Below are positions 8,766 through 58,903 of a stretch of DNA of 64,000 nt, piece by piece. Source of the stretch: Podaxis mareebaensis (Eukaryota; Basidiomycota; Agaricomycetes; Agaricales; Agaricaceae); NCBI GenBank assembly GCA_018524725.1, contig JAEUWP010000418.1, positions 16,341-80,340 on the forward strand. The letters run 5' to 3'. The notes beneath the pieces are model-generated. The model was given only the letters and a program-made list of their open reading frames with translations, was not told where the DNA came from and did no database searches. Position numbers and translations under genes: made by a program. Position 1 is the stretch's first letter. Each line of letters starts with the position of its first letter.

Positions 8766-10193
8766 TTACTGGGTCAAACACTTCCGTCCATAGAGCCGGT
8801 AAAAGTCGGCGACGAGATATAGACTACCAGCGATGATGATTAGGCCTGCATCTCTCGTGCGATCCGCTGCCCAGTCAATTGCCGCAGACAACGATCTCCC
8901 CGGCTCTGCATCCCCGTTAGTGACCCATATATCAGCATCGGAAATCAGGCTCCTAGCGACGTCAGCGAGATCCAACGGGGAAACTGGTTTGACCCATGGC
9001 ATTCCCGCTGGTGGAGAGAAGTCCAACAACGCAACGTGCGTTCTGACACGATCTTTCAATTGGTCGGAAGAATACGGCAATAGAATTGGGGATAGTGTTT
9101 GGACAGGTGTTTTAGGAGGTGAGTGGGATAGCGCAAGAATGTAGGTGAGGTCGATAACCGTGTCCGTAGAGAGCGAAATGATCCGATTAATATAATTTGC
9201 TAAGGTCTTGGCAGATGCAGGATTATGGGCGCCATCAACTAGAACGGGAAGGGATTTTGGCGACGAGATTGTATGGAATGAGAGACGGCCGGGCCATTTC
9301 ACTTTACTAATCCCACGAGCGATGACAGATGATGTAAGCAGATTAGCAATATTTGCTCTGAGTGGGCTTCTGGAAGTGAGAAGAACAGAGATAACGGTGA
9401 GGGCAGTCGTTAGATTTTCGAGCTGGTGTTCGCCATGAAGAGGAAAGTCCACCGTGATTTCTTCCGAGGAAGGGGTAAACGAGAACGAGACCCGGTTCCC
9501 TGCAGGTGGATGGAAAGATGATGGACGGAAAGATAGAGGCGGTTGCGTTGCGTTGTCCACCTTGCGAACGGTAAGGAGGGGGACCAATTTACTCTTCTTC
9601 TCCAAAAGGGCAGCCTTGACGGTGTCAACTACCTCCGGGTACTTCTGCGGGCCCAAGATGAACGGCCTTTCGGACCGAGCAATTCCAGCCTTTTCTGTTG
9701 CAATCGCAGAAACCGTGTTACCCAGGAAGGCTTGATGGTCAAGATCGACATTGGTAAGAGCAGAAACGAGGATAGCTTCATCTGGAATGATGTTCGTCGC
9801 GTCCAGTCTTCCTCCCATGCCCACCTCAACTACAGCGATATCAACTCCGACGCGTTCGAAGATTTGTAGAGCCGTCAGCGTGAGAAGCTCGAAATTGCTG
9901 AGGTTGGTGCCCTGCTCCGCGTCAACTCGTTCAACTTCGGCTCTTACTGAGTTCAGAAGCCCAGTCTCAACAGGATCACCGTTGACGACGATGCAATCAT
10001 TGATGCTGACAAGATGGGGACTGTTGTATCTGCCGACGTTCAGGGGGGGTGAAGTTGCACGAAGGATTGATGAGATAATTGCGGTGACGCTGCCCTTCCC
10101 ATTGGTGCCTGCTACATGACATGTTGGCCGTGTGTATCTTGGAAGGTGGTGTATCGCGTTCCGGAGTCGGTCCAAACTGAGGTCGATTGACAT
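8766..10193 (-). CDS. Dihydrofolate synthase / folylpolyglutamate synthase (Mur-ligase family)
   Basis: ATP-dependent ligase adding glutamate to dihydropteroate or folate. A single open frame of 475 residues starts at ATG 10191-10193. The start MSIDLSLDRLRNAI followed by the P-loop HVAGTNGKGSVTA matches yeast Fol3-type proteins. Further family blocks are GRYNSPHLVSINDCI, NFELLTLTAL, VEVGMGGRLDATNII, NVDLDHQAFLG, EKAGIAR and the C-terminal domain VLVDGAHNPASAKTL. An in-frame ATG at 10293-10295 would add 34 residues, possibly an organelle-targeting extension, but the internal start matches the family better. The absence of introns is unusual among its neighbours here. Dihydrofolate synthase is preferred because of the Fol3-like N-terminus. 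Confidence 0.92.
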   Translation of the reverse strand: MSIDLSLDRLRNAIHHLPRYTRPTCHVAGTNGKGSVTAIISSILRATSPPLNVGRYNSPHLVSINDCIVVNGDPVETGLLNSVRAEVERVDAEQGTNLSNFELLTLTALQIFERVGVDIAVVEVGMGGRLDATNIIPDEAILVSALTNVDLDHQAFLGNTVSAIATEKAGIARSERPFILGPQKYPEVVDTVKAALLEKKSKLVPLLTVRKVDNATQPPLSFRPSSFHPPAGNRVSFSFTPSSEEITVDFPLHGEHQLENLTTALTVISVLLTSRSPLRANIANLLTSSVIARGISKVKWPGRLSFHTISSPKSLPVLVDGAHNPASAKTLANYINRIISLSTDTVIDLTYILALSHSPPKTPVQTLSPILLPYSSDQLKDRVRTHVALLDFSPPAGMPWVKPVSPLDLADVARSLISDADIWVTNGDAEPGRSLSAAIDWAADRTRDAGLIIIAGSLYLVADFYRLYGRKCLTQ

Positions 10194-10601
10194 AACGACG
10201 AGAGGGCAGAACGTGATAAATGTCAAATTAATATGGCGATATGCCTGATTTAGGGCACGTGCTGTACAAATATTTGAATGTCTTCCCAATCCCATCTAAA
10301 AATTGACGAGTTGACAAAGCTTGAGGCCTAATAGCTTGTAGAACCGGATACGCCTCATTTCTGCTAGGAGTCTTCTAGCGAGTGGTAAGACCAGAGCTGG
10401 CGTACATCTGCCCCTTGGAGCGCCAGGACTCCTCCAACGGTGGTAGATGCACAGATTCGAGGCCCAGCAACTGTATGGTACGATGACGCATGTGACTACT
10501 CGGTTTTGATGCTTATAACGCCACTCCTTATGTTATAGCCGAAACGAGTAGTGAGATGTCTTGGCGCGAGAATTCTCCCCTCAACACCCTAAATCATCAT
10601 A

Positions 10602-10750
10602 CACTGGGCCGGTGAGTCAACAAACCAGCTGTTTTATCGAGACTTTATCATAATTTATATTCCAAATATGGTAATTGATACCATATATGGTAAGTAGTTC
10701 ACAATAATGCCTTGATAAAACACTAGGCTTATTGACTCACCGGCCCAGTG
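10602..10750. mobile_element. MITE-like non-autonomous DNA transposon with terminal inverted repeats
   Basis: Both ends carry the same 18-19 nt sequence in opposite orientation (CACTGGGCCGGTGAGTCA). Similarity then continues imperfectly inward through a TGTTTTATC block. The 4-bp sequence CATA stands directly outside each end (10598-10601 and 10751-10754) and is a plausible target-site duplication. The 149-bp element is AT-rich in its centre and has no coding capacity. The CACTG terminus resembles ends of CACTA-like superfamilies, but I cannot assign one. Confidence 0.85.
10662..10690. promoter_or_regulatory. Two CArG-box (MADS-box) consensus sequences inside the MITE
   Basis: CCAAATATGG at 10662-10671 and CCATATATGG at 10681-10690 both fit CC(A/T)6GG exactly. 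The segment between them is an inverted repeat (TATGGTA with TACCATA), so the centre could also form a hairpin. Binding is inference only. Confidence 0.4.
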
Positions 10751-11318
10751 CATAACTATCTTAGAAAAGCTGACATTCTACACTTCGCCAAGTGACTTCT
10801 CAACTCTGAACGGTTCAACTCCAGGGCGACCACAAAGAACCGTGAAGCACACCACACGATAAATGGCCGAATGCGCCATTGGCGCCCCGTATTACTATCA
10901 TCAAACGCTATCACAGCTGTTGAGAACAAATCTCAATGCAAGTTCAGGGCAAAGCGACCGTGACTGAGCATGAGTTTAACTTTAGTTCAGCACCCACGAG
11001 TTCTTGTCGACTATTACTCAAATCCAGGACGAGAACAACGGGGAGGTGTGTCCGTATCCAATTTTCACCGTGAAGTAGGAATAAGAACTAATGGGCCATG
11101 GTATCAAAGACAATTCGGAAAAGAAACAAACCAACAAATAATGAATCTTATTACCCACATCCCCGTAACCCTATACATAATATGTCCGTACAAAGGGCAT
11201 AGATTTTATCAAGCTCGAGGCCGTTACCAGCTTTCCGGCCTTACACCCTATTCAAGCCACGCTTTCTCCATGGTCATACGCAACTAATCGTTCTCTAACT
11301 TAGTACAGGTGAACTTGT
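10751..11318. other. Intergenic region
   Basis: Between the MITE and the 3' end of the repeat-peptide precursor. No gene or structured element recognised. Confidence 0.4.
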
Positions 11319-12136
11319 TCAATCAACGGTCTCCGTTCCGAGGTCCCGCTTCCAGGGTGGTGCGGCAGTACCATCTTCGGTGCGTTTCCAAGTTGGCGTC
11401 GTGGCATCCTTCCAGGGCGGCGGGGAAGCAGTCTCATCCGACTCACGCTTCCAACCAGGTGCACCGCTTTCCTCACGCCTCCAACCAGGCGCGCCGTTTT
11501 CCACTCGTCTCCATCCAGGCGCACCATTTTCCACTCGTCTCCATCCAGGCGCACCATTTTCTCCTCGCCTCCATCCAGGTGCACCGTTTTCTCCTCGCCT
11601 CCATCCGGGTGCACTGTTCTCTCCTCGCCTCCATCCGGGTGCACTGTTCTCTCCTCGCCTCCATCCAGGCGCACCGCTCTCTCCTCGTCTCCAACCTGGT
11701 GCACCGCTCTCTTCTCGCCTCCATCCAGGTGCACTGTTCTCTTCTCGCCTCCACCCAGGTGCACCACTCTCTCCTCGTCTCCAACCTGGTGCGCCGTCGG
11801 TGTCTCTCCTCCAACCCGGTGCACCATCAACACCTCGTTTCCAACCTGGCGCGCCGTCAGTGTCTCGCCTCCAGCCAGGTGCAGGACCGCTACTCTGTTT
11901 CTGCGTGGAGATGTAAATCAGACGTGTGGCAAAGCAGATATCCATGTAGGATAACTAACACTTTCAGCTACTACATTCTCGAGTCCGGGGCCTCGACTCA
12001 GGAGATTTTGGTTCCCCTGCAAAGACGGTTAACAATATACAGAGCGAGTTGCTCCAGGAGGGCATACCACGGGTACAGCACTGGCAGTGACAGCAAGAGT
12101 TGAAGCAAGGAGGGCGAAAAAGGCTACGGAACGCAT
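11319..12136 (-). CDS. Secreted Kex2-processed repeat precursor (candidate RiPP / peptide-signal precursor)
   Basis: Minus-strand gene, exons 12068-12136, 11960-12016 and 11319-11900, with both introns phase 0 (51 and 59 nt), giving 235 residues. Residues 1-21 form a textbook signal peptide (MRSVAFFALLASTLAVTASA). A short spacer follows, then 15 tandem ten-residue units of the form x(E/D)x(G/S)APGW(R/K)R, except that the first unit is SSGPAPGWRR. Three degenerate tail units follow, ending PPPWKD, TPTWKR and APPWKR, and then an acidic tail. The invariant dibasic pair after each Trp is the classical Kex2 cleavage signal. Cleavage plus Kex1 trimming would release octapeptides such as GENGAPGW. 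This is the architecture of fungal Kex2-processed repeat proteins, which include dikaritin (ustiloxin-type) RiPP precursors and alpha-type pheromones. A TATA-like box lies about 55 nt upstream. No UstYa-type modifying enzyme is recognised nearby. The processing model is inference. Confidence 0.85.
11445..11894 (-). repeat. Tandem array of fifteen 30-bp coding repeats
   Basis: Each 30-nt unit encodes one ten-residue APGW-dibasic unit. Neighbouring units are almost identical at the DNA level, suggesting recent unequal exchange or replication slippage. The multiple-of-three period keeps several other frames open on both strands, producing long spurious reading frames opposite the gene. Confidence 0.95.
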
Positions 12137-12189: not shown

Positions 12190-12201
12190 TGTTATATACT
12201 C
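12190..12201 (-). promoter_or_regulatory. TATA-like box of the repeat-precursor gene
   Basis: On the minus strand the sequence reads GTATATAAC, roughly 55-65 nt before the start codon, a position compatible with a fungal TATA box. Confidence 0.45.
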
Positions 12202-48709: not shown

Positions 48710-49533
48710 TTGCCCATGGCGAGTTGACTTAGTGATCTGAACATGAAATGCTCTATGATCTACACGATTACTTGAGCAACCGACCTCGATTGACACTCAA
48801 CCATGAACACTTGCCAATTCTTCGTCGTATTGGGAAGATGAGTCTTCATGATCGACTCATAATTACACTTGGTCAGGCTTTGCAGGGCTTAAAGTGCCTA
48901 GTTTCCGACTGATGGCGAGGCCTGCGCCCCTTGATCCGCCCTGTTCATAATTCGGCCACTTACCAATCCCGGACTGACAGTTTCCAAGGGCCGTGATTCT
49001 CATAGGCGCCTGTCATATGGGCGCTGGCGTCTATATCTTGGCTTATCAAGAGATCGCGGCCGTCTCTCATCCTCTTCACCGCCACTCTCCGCTGATATCC
49101 TTTCTTCGCGCAGCACTGCACAGGCGTCTCATCGCCCGATTTGTTGGGTCGGAGCATCAGTGAGTCTTGATCCGCGAGTCAGGCAATGACATACTTCTCA
49201 TCGAACTGATTGCAACAAATCGCTACTTCCGATTGCATAGGCTGGATAGGTTTTCCATAATTATCGTTCCGTAGCGCAGTCTTCTCTGTGCCCTCACGGA
49301 AAGCCTTCTACCCACGAATCCACCCGATTTCCTCTCGTTTCCAGCGTCTCCGACAACTGACGTTGCGGTCCTGGGCTGTGCAGTGAGAACCTAATTTATC
49401 AGCTAATCAAGCACTTGGCTCACGGCTTCCAGATATATTCAGTTCTGTCAATTGTCCGTAGCAGGGATCTGAAAGTGTATAAAGCCCTCCCAGCATTCGT
49501 GGCTTTGCCTACCTAGCAGTTACCACCGCAACT
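48710..49533. other. Intergenic region
   Basis: About 0.8 kb between tandem plus-strand genes; no gene seen. Confidence 0.4.
49478..49483 (+). promoter_or_regulatory. TATA box of the DUF6699-like gene
   Basis: TATAAA 51 nt upstream of the ATG at 49534. Confidence 0.55.
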
Positions 49534-50502
49534 ATGGCTTCGCCCTACTTATACGTCGCCGGAGGACACAGTCCTTACCAGCAGTCATCACCTTTCATCC
49601 CTCCCGCAAACCTGTTGTCAAGCACCTCACCCTACACCTCACCGTATAGTTCGCCTTATACCGGGTCGAACCCCCTTCCTGGAGGTTCGCCACATTCACC
49701 CAACGTAACACTCCCAGGCGTTCCCAATACTCCTCTACATACTTACGACCCGTACCCACCTCACTCCCCTTGGGAGCGCCCACGTCGGCCTTCGTATCAT
49801 GGCCCCAACCCCTACGAACCAGGGCCAAACTGGCTCTCTGCGCCGCCCATGGGACACCATCGTTCACACTCCTTCGGTGAAAACACTTACCCCGCCCCAG
49901 TCGGCTACGGAGGATACTGGCCCCCACCCTCCACTCCCTTTGTCGGTTACCCACCCCAAGGGTATCACATCCATCCATTGCTTAACGGTGAAAACCCCCG
50001 TGGCGATTTCCTCTTTGACCTCTCCGCTCCCAAATTCTCGCCTTTGAAGTATATGGGCCCAGGACATGTAGTGCCTCTTTCACCTGATGAGCTTCAGCAA
50101 GCCGCGACATGGCCTACGATTACCCGACTCCGCATCATCTGCGACTTGATCCCGCAATGGCCGATCGATATTCAATTCGACCCTGGCTACGTTGGTCCGC
50201 ACGGTACGCCTCCTGGATACCAGCCTCCACCGATTACGTTAGGTGATATCCTAGTACGGATATACGAACATTTGGGACAGAGGATTACGCATATGGATTG
50301 GGCGGGATTATCTCCGCAGGACGAGACGGCTATTGCGAGAGCGTATACGACGAGGTGCAAGTCGCTTGGAAGCCTGGAGGCGGTGGAGAGGAGTCATGGT
50401 GTGAAGAGGATTGATTATTGTTCGGGTAAGGTTTGGTTTAGGGGGTTGACGAGGGTGGGGGATGGGATGGATGTGTTAAAGTTGCATTTGTTTAAGAAGT
50501 AA
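49534..50502 (+). CDS. DUF6699-like protein with Pro/Tyr-rich N-terminus
   Basis: Intronless, 322 residues. About 150 N-terminal residues are low-complexity, rich in Pro, Ser, Tyr and Gly (repeated SPY, PYTS and PP). The folded C-terminal part starts near HPLLNGENPRGDFLFDLS and continues ATWPTITRLRIICDLIPQWPIDIQ, PPPITLGDILVRIYEHLGQRITHMDW and GMDVLKLHLFKK. This PLLNG..FDLS..ITLGDIL..I..L plan is what I recall for DUF6699, a domain common in mushroom-forming fungi and without known function. A second, shorter relative lies at 56548-57096. Confidence 0.75.
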   Translation: MASPYLYVAGGHSPYQQSSPFIPPANLLSSTSPYTSPYSSPYTGSNPLPGGSPHSPNVTLPGVPNTPLHTYDPYPPHSPWERPRRPSYHGPNPYEPGPNWLSAPPMGHHRSHSFGENTYPAPVGYGGYWPPPSTPFVGYPPQGYHIHPLLNGENPRGDFLFDLSAPKFSPLKYMGPGHVVPLSPDELQQAATWPTITRLRIICDLIPQWPIDIQFDPGYVGPHGTPPGYQPPPITLGDILVRIYEHLGQRITHMDWAGLSPQDETAIARAYTTRCKSLGSLEAVERSHGVKRIDYCSGKVWFRGLTRVGDGMDVLKLHLFKK

Positions 50503-56547: not shown

Positions 56548-57096
56548 TCAGCGGCGTATGTGGAGGTCCCAGGCATCGGGCTCGTTTGCCTTCAATGAGA
56601 GGCCCATCCAACTGCGATGCCCATTCAAATAGTTCAACACCCACTGATGAACCTGTTGTTCGTTGGGAGGGGGGTATGAAACAGGCTGAGGATATGCGTG
56701 TGGAGAGGGAATTAAGAGGGGTTGGTATGTAGGCTGGAAGTGTTCCTGTGCTGCACTTCTAATCGCATGATAGACTGCAAGGAGCACGTCCGCGACCGTC
56801 ACGTAAGGATCTTTCAGAGCCACAATGGGCCGATCCTGTGTTGGGCCTGACCAAATAGTCAGAGCCGTCGTAGGAGGATAGGTCGCTGGTCGATTTTGCC
56901 AGACTTCGCCATAGGGAAGCAGCATATTCGCGATGGCGGTGGAGGGATGTTCAGAAACTGACCATGTAATTGGAACTCCCTTCCGTGTGCATTGCAGCAG
57001 AGGGTCTAATGTCAAAGGCTGTGCGCACTGTTGGGGTAGGGGGATGCGGCCGTATGGAGGTTGGGTGTAATTGAATGGCGGGGGCTGGTAGGACAT
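56548..57096 (-). CDS. Short DUF6699-like protein
   Basis: Single exon of 182 residues from ATG 57094-57096. After a Pro/Tyr/Gln-rich start (MSYQPPPFNYTQPPYGR), the domain reads LTLDPLLQC, ITWSVSEHPSTAIANM, YPPTTALTIWSGP, VALKDPYVTVADVLLAVYHAIRSAAQ and WMGLSLKANEPDAWDLHI. DPLL..ITWSV and the DPYVTVADVL..VY helix match the DUF6699 plan. It is shorter than the relative at 49534-50502. TATA-like sequence (TATAAGTATATA) lies about 45-57 nt upstream. Confidence 0.72.
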   Translation of the reverse strand: MSYQPPPFNYTQPPYGRIPLPQQCAQPLTLDPLLQCTRKGVPITWSVSEHPSTAIANMLLPYGEVWQNRPATYPPTTALTIWSGPTQDRPIVALKDPYVTVADVLLAVYHAIRSAAQEHFQPTYQPLLIPSPHAYPQPVSYPPPNEQQVHQWVLNYLNGHRSWMGLSLKANEPDAWDLHIRR

Positions 57097-57141
57097 TGCG
57101 GATGCAATATGACTGAGATGAGATATTGTGCGCGTCGGTGC

Positions 57142-57152
57142 TATATACTTAT
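57142..57152 (-). promoter_or_regulatory. TATA-like region of the short DUF6699-like gene
   Basis: Minus-strand TATAAGTATATA, about 45-57 nt upstream of the start codon. Confidence 0.4.
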
Positions 57153-58903
57153 ACACAGTACAATTAACCGGTTTTCGGGGTCTGCCGAGTATGCATTATG
57201 AGTCACTTTTCCTAGTCACTGCGGATCCGTAGTTGAATGACATACTGTCGGTATGACTACCACTCCAACTTCCGAAGTCTTCAGTCAACTATTGTGAGGC
57301 GAGTGGGGTTCTCCGTAGAATAGAGCTGCGATTGGAACCGCGCAGTGGATAGAGTAATCCAGCCAAAGGAATCTTTGGGGGGGTCTGAGTCGTTCCTCTC
57401 AGCGGCCTTTTATGATAACTCTGTATGCGCCTCTACAAACACGTATATGGTGTTTTTGTAAACGTTCGGGCGAGCATCATCCGCATGATAGCATTCTGGT
57501 TCTAGTTGAAACAATCGCTATTAGAACCCTTCCTCCATAGGATTGTCAGATACAGTAGTAGATTGTGTTCTATTTGTTTGACGATTCTCGGAAGACGCAG
57601 CTCCTTACTATCCATAGGGGGACAAATGAGCCTGTCTTCTCCGCTTCCCCGCGTAACATGGAGATACGGAGAGAATCAATAACCTCTGACGTGCTGCGCA
57701 CCATAGGCCTTATCCTGGACACCCGGCGGCAGTAAAACTAAACAATCTGGCATGTCGTTGGGGATCATAGACTAGTTTAGACTCTGGCGGCTACATGGCC
57801 CATGTGAATACTTTTGATCGTTGACATTTGAATAGTTACATCCGAACAGATTGGAGCGGCGAAGGCTCGACGTTAGACACTTCGGGATAGAGAGTTCGGG
57901 AGAATATGATACGGATGCCAACTTTATGTCTTTCCTTCCTTGACCGGACTAATTTAACTATTTGAGGCCATCCCAAGCAGAAAATGAATGTCACCAACGG
58001 GGTCCGTTATCTCCATTAGTATGAGACTTCACATATGTATTCCTGCATACCGAAGAGAACTCGCACAGCTTTCTTGCCACGTGTGATAAGCGCTAAGTGC
58101 TAACTGCAATATTGCTTTGTGCCATTTGGCATATGATTGGTTGACAACGGGAACAAAATGCGACTTTTGAGGAGATCTCGCGAAGACTCCTCTTTCGGAG
58201 TCGCCAAATGGTTTTATGGGCCGAGGCTGTTATGGCTCGGGACCCCAATGTATTCTGAGAGTAAGAAAGACCTGTACATGCGGCGGTCTCGCTCACATGT
58301 GTTGTGTTGCAGCTTCCACTGGTTCTTGATCAAAGATTGCTCGTCATTTCCTGGGAAGTTGTGAGCAGGAGAAAAGCTTTTTGGGTTGGAAGGTGAACTC
58401 TGGATCTCCCTCCATAGCCCCACGCGTTGGGCTCTTATATCCAATGGAGTTGGGTGTTATACGTCACAAGAGGCTATAGTCACTGTTCAGTCCCATACCC
58501 TTGTCAAGGCAGTAGATGATAAAAAAAGAAGAATAGAGAAGACATAAGAGTATTAATGTAAGTATTCTGAAATGGAAGGAAGCTGATTTAGTGATGATCA
58601 AGATGTCGAAGAGGAAGCTCCGTAGTTGCCATTCAATGCTGGTTTTTGTCAGCATAGATCTGTTTGCTACTGAGAGATGCAAACCGAACAGCACAGATTT
58701 CTTAGGAAGATGCATCCACTAATCCCACTCTGACGGGCAGTGACATGCATCAAGGAAGATACAGAATGCAGAAATAAATAGCAAGGAGGCCTGGAGGGCT
58801 TTGAACACGAGATATGAGACAAAGCATAATAGGAAAACCTTATATCCTGTGTGATGGCAACTACAGGGTGTTTTGGTCATTTGATCATGTCATGAATTGC
58901 TCC
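57153..58903. other. Intergenic region leading into the CpG-free block
   Basis: No gene recognised. CpG frequency is normal up to about 58460 and then falls, with only a few CpGs (near 58461, 58732, 58806 and 58902) before they vanish. Confidence 0.4.

Follow-up and report, generated by a model that had tools for sequence, protein, structure and literature searches.

A Podaxis mareebaensis gene encoding a probable Kex2-processed repeat precursor of Trp-terminal APGW octapeptides

Background

Kex2-repeat precursors are common in fungi and few of them have a known function. KEX2-processed repeat proteins (KEPs) have been surveyed by Le Marquer 2019 (PMC6339444) and Umemura 2020 (PMC7329392), and a study of mushroom KEPs was reported by Vogt 2022 (PMC9769878); each of these papers is cited here for parts of its text. 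According to the cited sections of PMC9769878, many basidiomycete KEPs combine Ste13 motifs with cores that terminate in tryptophan, and linear W-terminal peptides from such precursors were detected. The KEPs most comparable to the gene described here are Coprinopsis cinerea 490115 and 447393, Pleurotus 1091723 and Lentinula 2599, all of which share with it a signal peptide and Kex2-cut, Trp-ending products. Agaricomycete KEP products given in the same sections include QYKAPSW (from 490115, expressed in Pichia), GPPAPSW, SGVAADW and SGTGEASAADW, the Trp often being preceded by Pro or Ala (PMC9769878). Six Coprinopsis kep knockouts are described there as having no phenotype (PMC9769878), and therefore a function has not been established for the class.

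Two further systems resemble the gene in part. The dikaritins (ustiloxin, phomopsin and asperipin types) likewise derive from a secreted Kex2-repeat precursor. In the molluscan APGWamide precursors, APGW is repeated before basic sites and the Gly that follows the Trp serves as the amide donor. Here we describe a gene of Podaxis mareebaensis whose product is very probably a KEP of the agaricomycete C-terminal-Trp kind that would yield linear secreted octapeptides. Its class is already known; what is particular to this precursor is most likely its exact regularity, its long array, its APGW core and its missing Ste13 handle. The invariant four-residue core, the freer N-terminus and the exact predicted masses make it a convenient subject for peptidomic and knockout studies.

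Results and discussion

Gene model and repeat array

The gene occupies positions 12136-11319 on the minus strand of the window (the whole 64,000-nucleotide stretch of DNA that was analysed) and is predicted to contain three exons separated by two phase 0 introns (Table 1). The precursor is either 235 or 230 aa in length, depending on the choice of intron 2 donor, and is ordered as a signal peptide, a short spacer, 15 APGW units and a degenerate tail. A TAG stands in frame directly upstream of the ATG. KEPs are recognized by an N-terminal signal peptide and by a run of similar units, three or four at the least, between KR or RR sites. In the APGW precursor the former is called by rule of thumb, from a hydropathy maximum of 2.28 (11-residue) and the Ala-Ser-Ala that precedes the likely cut, and the latter is represented by 15 units. 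A Pfam scan of the repeat ORF returned no family.

Table 1 Features of the APGW precursor gene and of other loci (window positions unless a contig is named)
Feature	Position	Strand	Basis or remark
Possible TATA box, TATATA	12193..12198	-	lies some 57-62 nt before the ATG; spotted by eye
Exon 1: signal peptide MRSVAFFALLASTLAVTASA followed by VPV	12068..12136	-	ATG at 12136
Intron 1, 51 nt, phase 0, GTATGC...TTTGCAG	12017..12067	-	predicted from sequence
Exon 2: spacer GNQNLLSRGPGLEN(VVAES)	11960..12016	-	low end 11960 or 11975, by donor
Intron 2, 59 nt, GTTAGT donor, phase 0, CACGCAG end	11901..11959	-	predicted from sequence
Intron 2, alternative, 74 nt, GTAGTA donor, phase 0	11901..11974	-	predicted from sequence
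Exon 3: 15 APGW units, degenerate tail and stop	11319..11900	-	sequence
First unit, KQSSGPAPGWRR, no dibasic site upstream	11865..11900	-	sequence
14 units, 30 nt each and exactly in register, xxx[GS]APGW[RK]R	11445..11864	-	sequence
Tail, ESDETASPPPWK DATTPTWKR TEDGTAAPPWKR DLGTETVD and stop	11319..11444	-	sequence
DUF6699 ORF	49483-50499	+	Pfam
DUF6699 ORF	56551-57195	-	Pfam
Second Trp-terminal KEP gene	C190:63060-62546 (L028 2561-2047)	-	pattern search, sequence
Third Trp-terminal KEP gene, GNSDW units before RR/KR	C150 (L029 about 2310-1758)	-	pattern search, sequence

Every unit of the array ends in RR or KR, and 14 of the 15 maintain an exact ten-residue register. These 14 are flanked by dibasic sites at both ends; the remaining one, SSGPAPGW, has no dibasic site before it, so this first unit keeps the whole spacer at its N-terminus. 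Eight distinct octapeptides occur among the flanked units, six of them twice (DTDGAPGW, GESGAPGW, EESGAPGW, VENGAPGW, GENSAPGW and GENGAPGW) and two once (GVDGAPGW and EENSAPGW). GAPGW closes 11 of the 14 and SAPGW the other 3, and the predicted linear masses range from [M+H]+ 758.35 to 889.37, the eight values being 758.347, 760.326, 787.337, 817.348, 818.332, 829.384, 832.347 and 889.369. The tail consists of degenerate pieces containing PPPW, TPTW and APPW. Trp directly precedes the dibasic site in all 15 units as well as in both KR-ending pieces of the tail. The 15 W[KR]R sites of the array follow one another at an exact 10-residue period, and the run cannot be attributed to chance, since a run of even 3 was reached in 0/100 mononucleotide shuffles of the window. 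A repeat-ORF detector found nothing of the kind in 5 mononucleotide-shuffled windows; when applied to real loci, it additionally picked up alternative frames of the APGW array and arrays on contig C53 (3 fragments). The signal peptide, spacer and 15 periodic units of the original prediction were all recovered, with the correction that only 14 of the units are flanked octapeptides. Likewise, the seven kinds of octapeptide that it listed are all present, while EENSAPGW had been omitted, as had the degenerate tail.

Proposed processing

Judging from its signal peptide, the precursor would enter the secretory pathway, where Kex2 would cut after each RR or KR and Kex1 would subsequently remove the basic residues. 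This route would release 14 linear octapeptides of the form xxx[GS]APGW together with longer end pieces. The sequence supports the earlier proposal of a secreted precursor of the Kex2/Kex1 type that gives GExGAPGW-like octapeptides. Profile searches of the genome (37 Mb, 429 contigs) returned at least one P_proprotein match of the Kex2 type, DPPIV_N (the Ste13 type) at one place, and 35 matches to peptidase S10, a family count that is not resolved to Kex1. For comparison, Coprinopsis is described in the cited part of PMC9769878 as having three kex2 genes. The Ste13-type KEPs are marked by an XA/XP signature, and Ala or Pro occupies position 2 in 0/14 of the units; Ste13 trimming is thus not expected here. 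The first three residues, of which mostly one is acidic, differ from Ste13-type dipeptides and probably stay on the peptide. As the relatives described below carry EA/EP repeats at this place, the N-terminal triad looks like a former or converted handle.

Trp-terminal KEP genes elsewhere in the genome

Two genome-wide pattern searches were performed, both asking for three W-[KR]R sites spaced by gaps of set size, a design that misses KEPs with other endings. The first returned 45 matches, 13 of them in the APGW array (backward control, 14), and the second returned 13 (backward control, 9). Three KEP-like loci emerged: the APGW array itself on contig C59 and one gene each on C190 and C150. Pattern matches outside these three contigs were rejected as not KEP-like by eye. 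The W-[KR]R pattern also picked up a very similar sequence, TGGAGGAGGCATT..., on contigs C53, C178, C220, C364, C403 and C415; on four of the six, consecutive matches are spaced by 39 bases.

The C190 gene has a signal-peptide exon (MRIQLLFFVSVIGAALAAPVP), two phase-0 introns and then a repeat exon of six units that end in SPGWKR, PPGWRR/KR or TPSWKR. It resembles the APGW gene in its exon plan, in its SPGW and PPGW cores, and in a short acidic stretch that follows its last KR. It differs from the APGW gene in that its six units are irregular, carry EAEA/EAEP-like (Ste13-type) handles and include TPSW cores. The C150 gene also has a phase-0 intron after its signal-peptide exon. The precursor of Laccaria MiSSP8 has a DWRR motif similar to that of the C150 gene; a literature search that paired MiSSP8 with the DWRR motif returned nothing.

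Relatives in other fungi

A direct protein search with the spliced APGW precursor gave no match at E <= 10 among 193 candidates. This null result is not proof of uniqueness, because a search with the C190 product did find relatives. Among 819 candidates the latter search produced six matches at E <= 10, of which two fell below 1e-7. Both the Termitomyces sp. Mi166 protein C0995_002980 (P0121), with units EPEAGTPGWRR and EPEAGPPGWKR, and the Lyophyllum shimeji protein LshimejAT787_0904770 (P0125), with units REAPGWKR, AEAEAGAPGWKR and GESSPPGWKR, bear comparison with the APGW precursor. The relatives from these two genera are annotated as hypothetical proteins and display GAPGW, APGW, GTPGW, GPPGW and GSPGW before KR/RR; GAPGWKR itself is contained in P0125. 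The likeness of P0121 and P0125 to the APGW precursor lies in units that end in APGW, GAPGW, PPGW, TPGW or SPGW before KR/RR, and the difference lies in their fewer, irregular units with EA/EP handles. After Ste13 trimming these two proteins would yield short cores such as GAPGW and GTPGW.

Eight proteins were compared with the APGW precursor against strict shuffles (n=300) in which W and the dibasic sites were kept. The observed score was reached in 0/300 shuffles for P0121, P0122 and P0125, in 3/300 for P0124, 4/300 for the C190 product, 37/300 for P0123, 86/300 for the Pleurotus eryngii protein P0126 and 199/300 for the C150 product. When the dibasic sites alone were kept, no shuffle of 300 reached the score for any of the eight. 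Similarity beyond W and the dibasic sites was accordingly found with 3 of the 8 proteins (P0121, P0122 and P0125), and we do not claim a common origin of the C150 and APGW genes, since 199/300 strict shuffles reach their score. P0125 is a weak match to the C190 product (E 0.41); its alignment with the APGW precursor scores 181, compared with a shuffle maximum of 156, and BLASTP of this pair gives 2e-12, a value that comes from a single comparison of repeat-rich sequences. A search of the whole genome with P0121 gave 4 matches at E <= 1 (3 candidates scored), one in the C190 gene (6.4e-10) and the others in the APGW array (2.4e-6, 3.3e-6 and 0.009). A match on contig C152 (E 0.014), which came from another search, was rejected, as it consists of acidic repeats and has no W-[KR]R units in the listed frames. 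The series APGW, PPGW, TPGW and SPGW across the relatives suggests that the C-terminal end may be the part under selection.

The agaricomycete KEPs of PMC9769878 were compared by description, the full sequence being used for Pleurotus eryngii P0126 only. Unlike 490115 and the Pleurotus precursors, which have a Ste13 XA/XP handle, the APGW precursor has none. It is further distinguished from the agaricomycete Trp KEPs by its APGW core and its 14 exactly regular units; the peptides of Coprinopsis 447393, in the cited description, come from a non-repetitive C-terminus (PMC9769878). A fungal precursor with APGW, GAPGW, PGWKR or PGWRR was not encountered in literature titles and the beginnings of abstracts, and the strings APGW and PGW are absent from the main text, supplements aside, of PMC6339444 and PMC7329392. 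The gene or an orthologue may be present in the supplementary tables of the KEP surveys. The suggestion in the original prediction that this core belongs to no named family is not supported: relatives occur in Lyophyllum shimeji, in Termitomyces and in the same genome, and the class is described in PMC9769878. As for the molluscan APGWamide precursor, Gly follows Trp in 0/15 of the APGW units and the organism is unrelated, and the shared tetrapeptide is most likely a coincidence.

Alternative interpretations

The array might be a non-coding minisatellite that is open by accident, or part of a gene that is read in another frame. Of the six frames, five stay open across the 14 units, as such a minisatellite would allow, so that openness alone proves little. 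Among the units, pN/pS is 0.22 in the APGW frame, 0.37 in the plus-strand frame with which it has wobble positions in common, and 1.25 to 2.06 in the remaining four frames. Comparison of the 14 units gives pN 0.000 and pS 0.582 for the APGW codons, and pN 0.330 for unit codons 1-3. With no nonsynonymous change at such a pS, selection acts on this frame at the protein level. It falls on the C-terminal APGW core and leaves the N-terminal triad freer, in line with the constrained core that had been anticipated. This codon pattern weighs strongly against the minisatellite, as do the signal-peptide exon that joins in phase in the predicted model and the core residues common to relatives in other genera. 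We therefore consider a minisatellite or another frame extremely improbable, and the locus is most likely a real gene. A gene of this plan could still deliver a dikaritin-like RiPP, its octapeptides being cyclised or Trp-cross-linked by a UstYa (DUF3328) protein encoded elsewhere. The genome does contain nine UstYa (PF11807) matches, 8 of them over the cut-off, on four contigs (C58, C61, C291 and C325). No Kex2-repeat precursor was recognised near these genes (C61:1-19799, C58:20000-31897, C291:12000-31799 and C325:1-10000), and since their substrates were not recognised beside them they could act from a distance. One Arg/Ser-rich ORF near the UstYa matches drew attention but was dismissed because it does not resemble a KEP. 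The cited part of PMC7329392 reports a DUF3328 gene near 17/76 (22%) of the KEPs homologous to putative basidiomycete pheromones, which are Ste13-type kin; among basidiomycete KEPs as a whole, DUF3328 neighbours are given there for just 103/1680. Dikaritins are marked by a UstYa gene near the precursor, and 0/9 of the matches fall on the 80 kb contig of the APGW gene (C59), where 27.7 kb and 51.9 kb flank the gene, which makes UstYa modification unlikely. The core is also devoid of Tyr and Cys, and the measured W-terminal peptides of relatives are linear in the cited sections of PMC9769878. A cyclised or otherwise modified RiPP, one of two products first envisaged, is thus unsupported, and we judge it quite improbable.

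The preferred assignment is that of a KEP with linear products, and our best reading is that these would be secreted peptides with an extracellular function, most likely as signals or in interactions with other organisms, as the class suggests. If the precursor is a KEP, its peptides might be directed not at the producer but at other organisms such as bacteria, competitors, animals or plants. Such a biotic role was favoured by the authors of the Coprinopsis work after their knockouts gave no axenic phenotype; synthetic KEP peptides had no antibacterial activity in the portion of that paper cited here (PMC9769878). The repetitive Kex2 precursor MiSSP8, which matters in Laccaria ectomycorrhiza (as cited in PMC7329392), points in the same direction, but the APGW locus itself offers no pointer to a target, and we hold this role as a tentative possibility, somewhat short of an even chance. 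Within the same KEP reading, the products could instead be alpha-pheromone-like mating or self-signalling peptides sensed by a GPCR. In its plan the gene is similar to alpha-pheromone precursors, as are its Ste13-type relatives, and hormone or pheromone functions have been put forward for those basidiomycete KEPs that bear Ste13 signatures (PMC6339444, in the part cited). That signature, however, is missing from all 14 units. A search for STE2-type receptors gave no match in the genome, nor any in the control genomes, and so carries no weight either way. STE3-type receptors are abundant, with 23 genome matches, and basidiomycete sexual pheromones are a-type only according to the cited text of PMC6339444, which also counts against an alpha-type pheromone. 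A pheromone is on balance unlikely. We also put forward, as a speculation that is rather doubtful in its entirety, that an old [GS]xPGW peptide family exists across agaricomycetes and is normally trimmed by Kex2, Kex1 and Ste13 to a pentapeptide, and that in the present gene the Ste13 handles were lost and a uniform array was amplified, so that the core, a conserved mushroom signal, would be released as an acidic octapeptide.

Contig C188 carries many exons of STE3-type receptors and is perhaps a pheromone-receptor mating locus.

Genomic surroundings

The APGW gene is neighboured by a folate-ligase ORF at 8769-10295 (query 8769-10193). Its best named matches are from Macrolepiota fuliginosa (73%), Leucocoprinus leucothites (67%) and Agaricus bisporus (65%), and two further proteins at 72% rank alongside them. 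Macrolepiota, Leucocoprinus and Agaricus belong to the Agaricaceae, which places the genome in that family or near it. A Pfam scan covered 30 of the 148 stop-to-stop ORFs of at least 90 aa in the window. Domains over the cut-off in these 30 were those of 2-oxoglutarate dehydrogenase and transketolase, myo-inositol oxygenase (MIOX, like the folate ligase a gene that flanks the APGW gene), Mur-ligase (the folate ligase), an ABC transporter and DUF6699; an HMG box (25.3 bits vs 25.4) and a kinase domain did not reach it. A promoter and terminator scan found nothing with its bacterial models, which are inapplicable to a fungus. A MITE-like inverted repeat is located at 10599-10753, with 75 nt arms that are 76% complementary and separated by 5 nt, and two further copies of it are present in the genome, on contigs C37 (98%) and C360 (96%).
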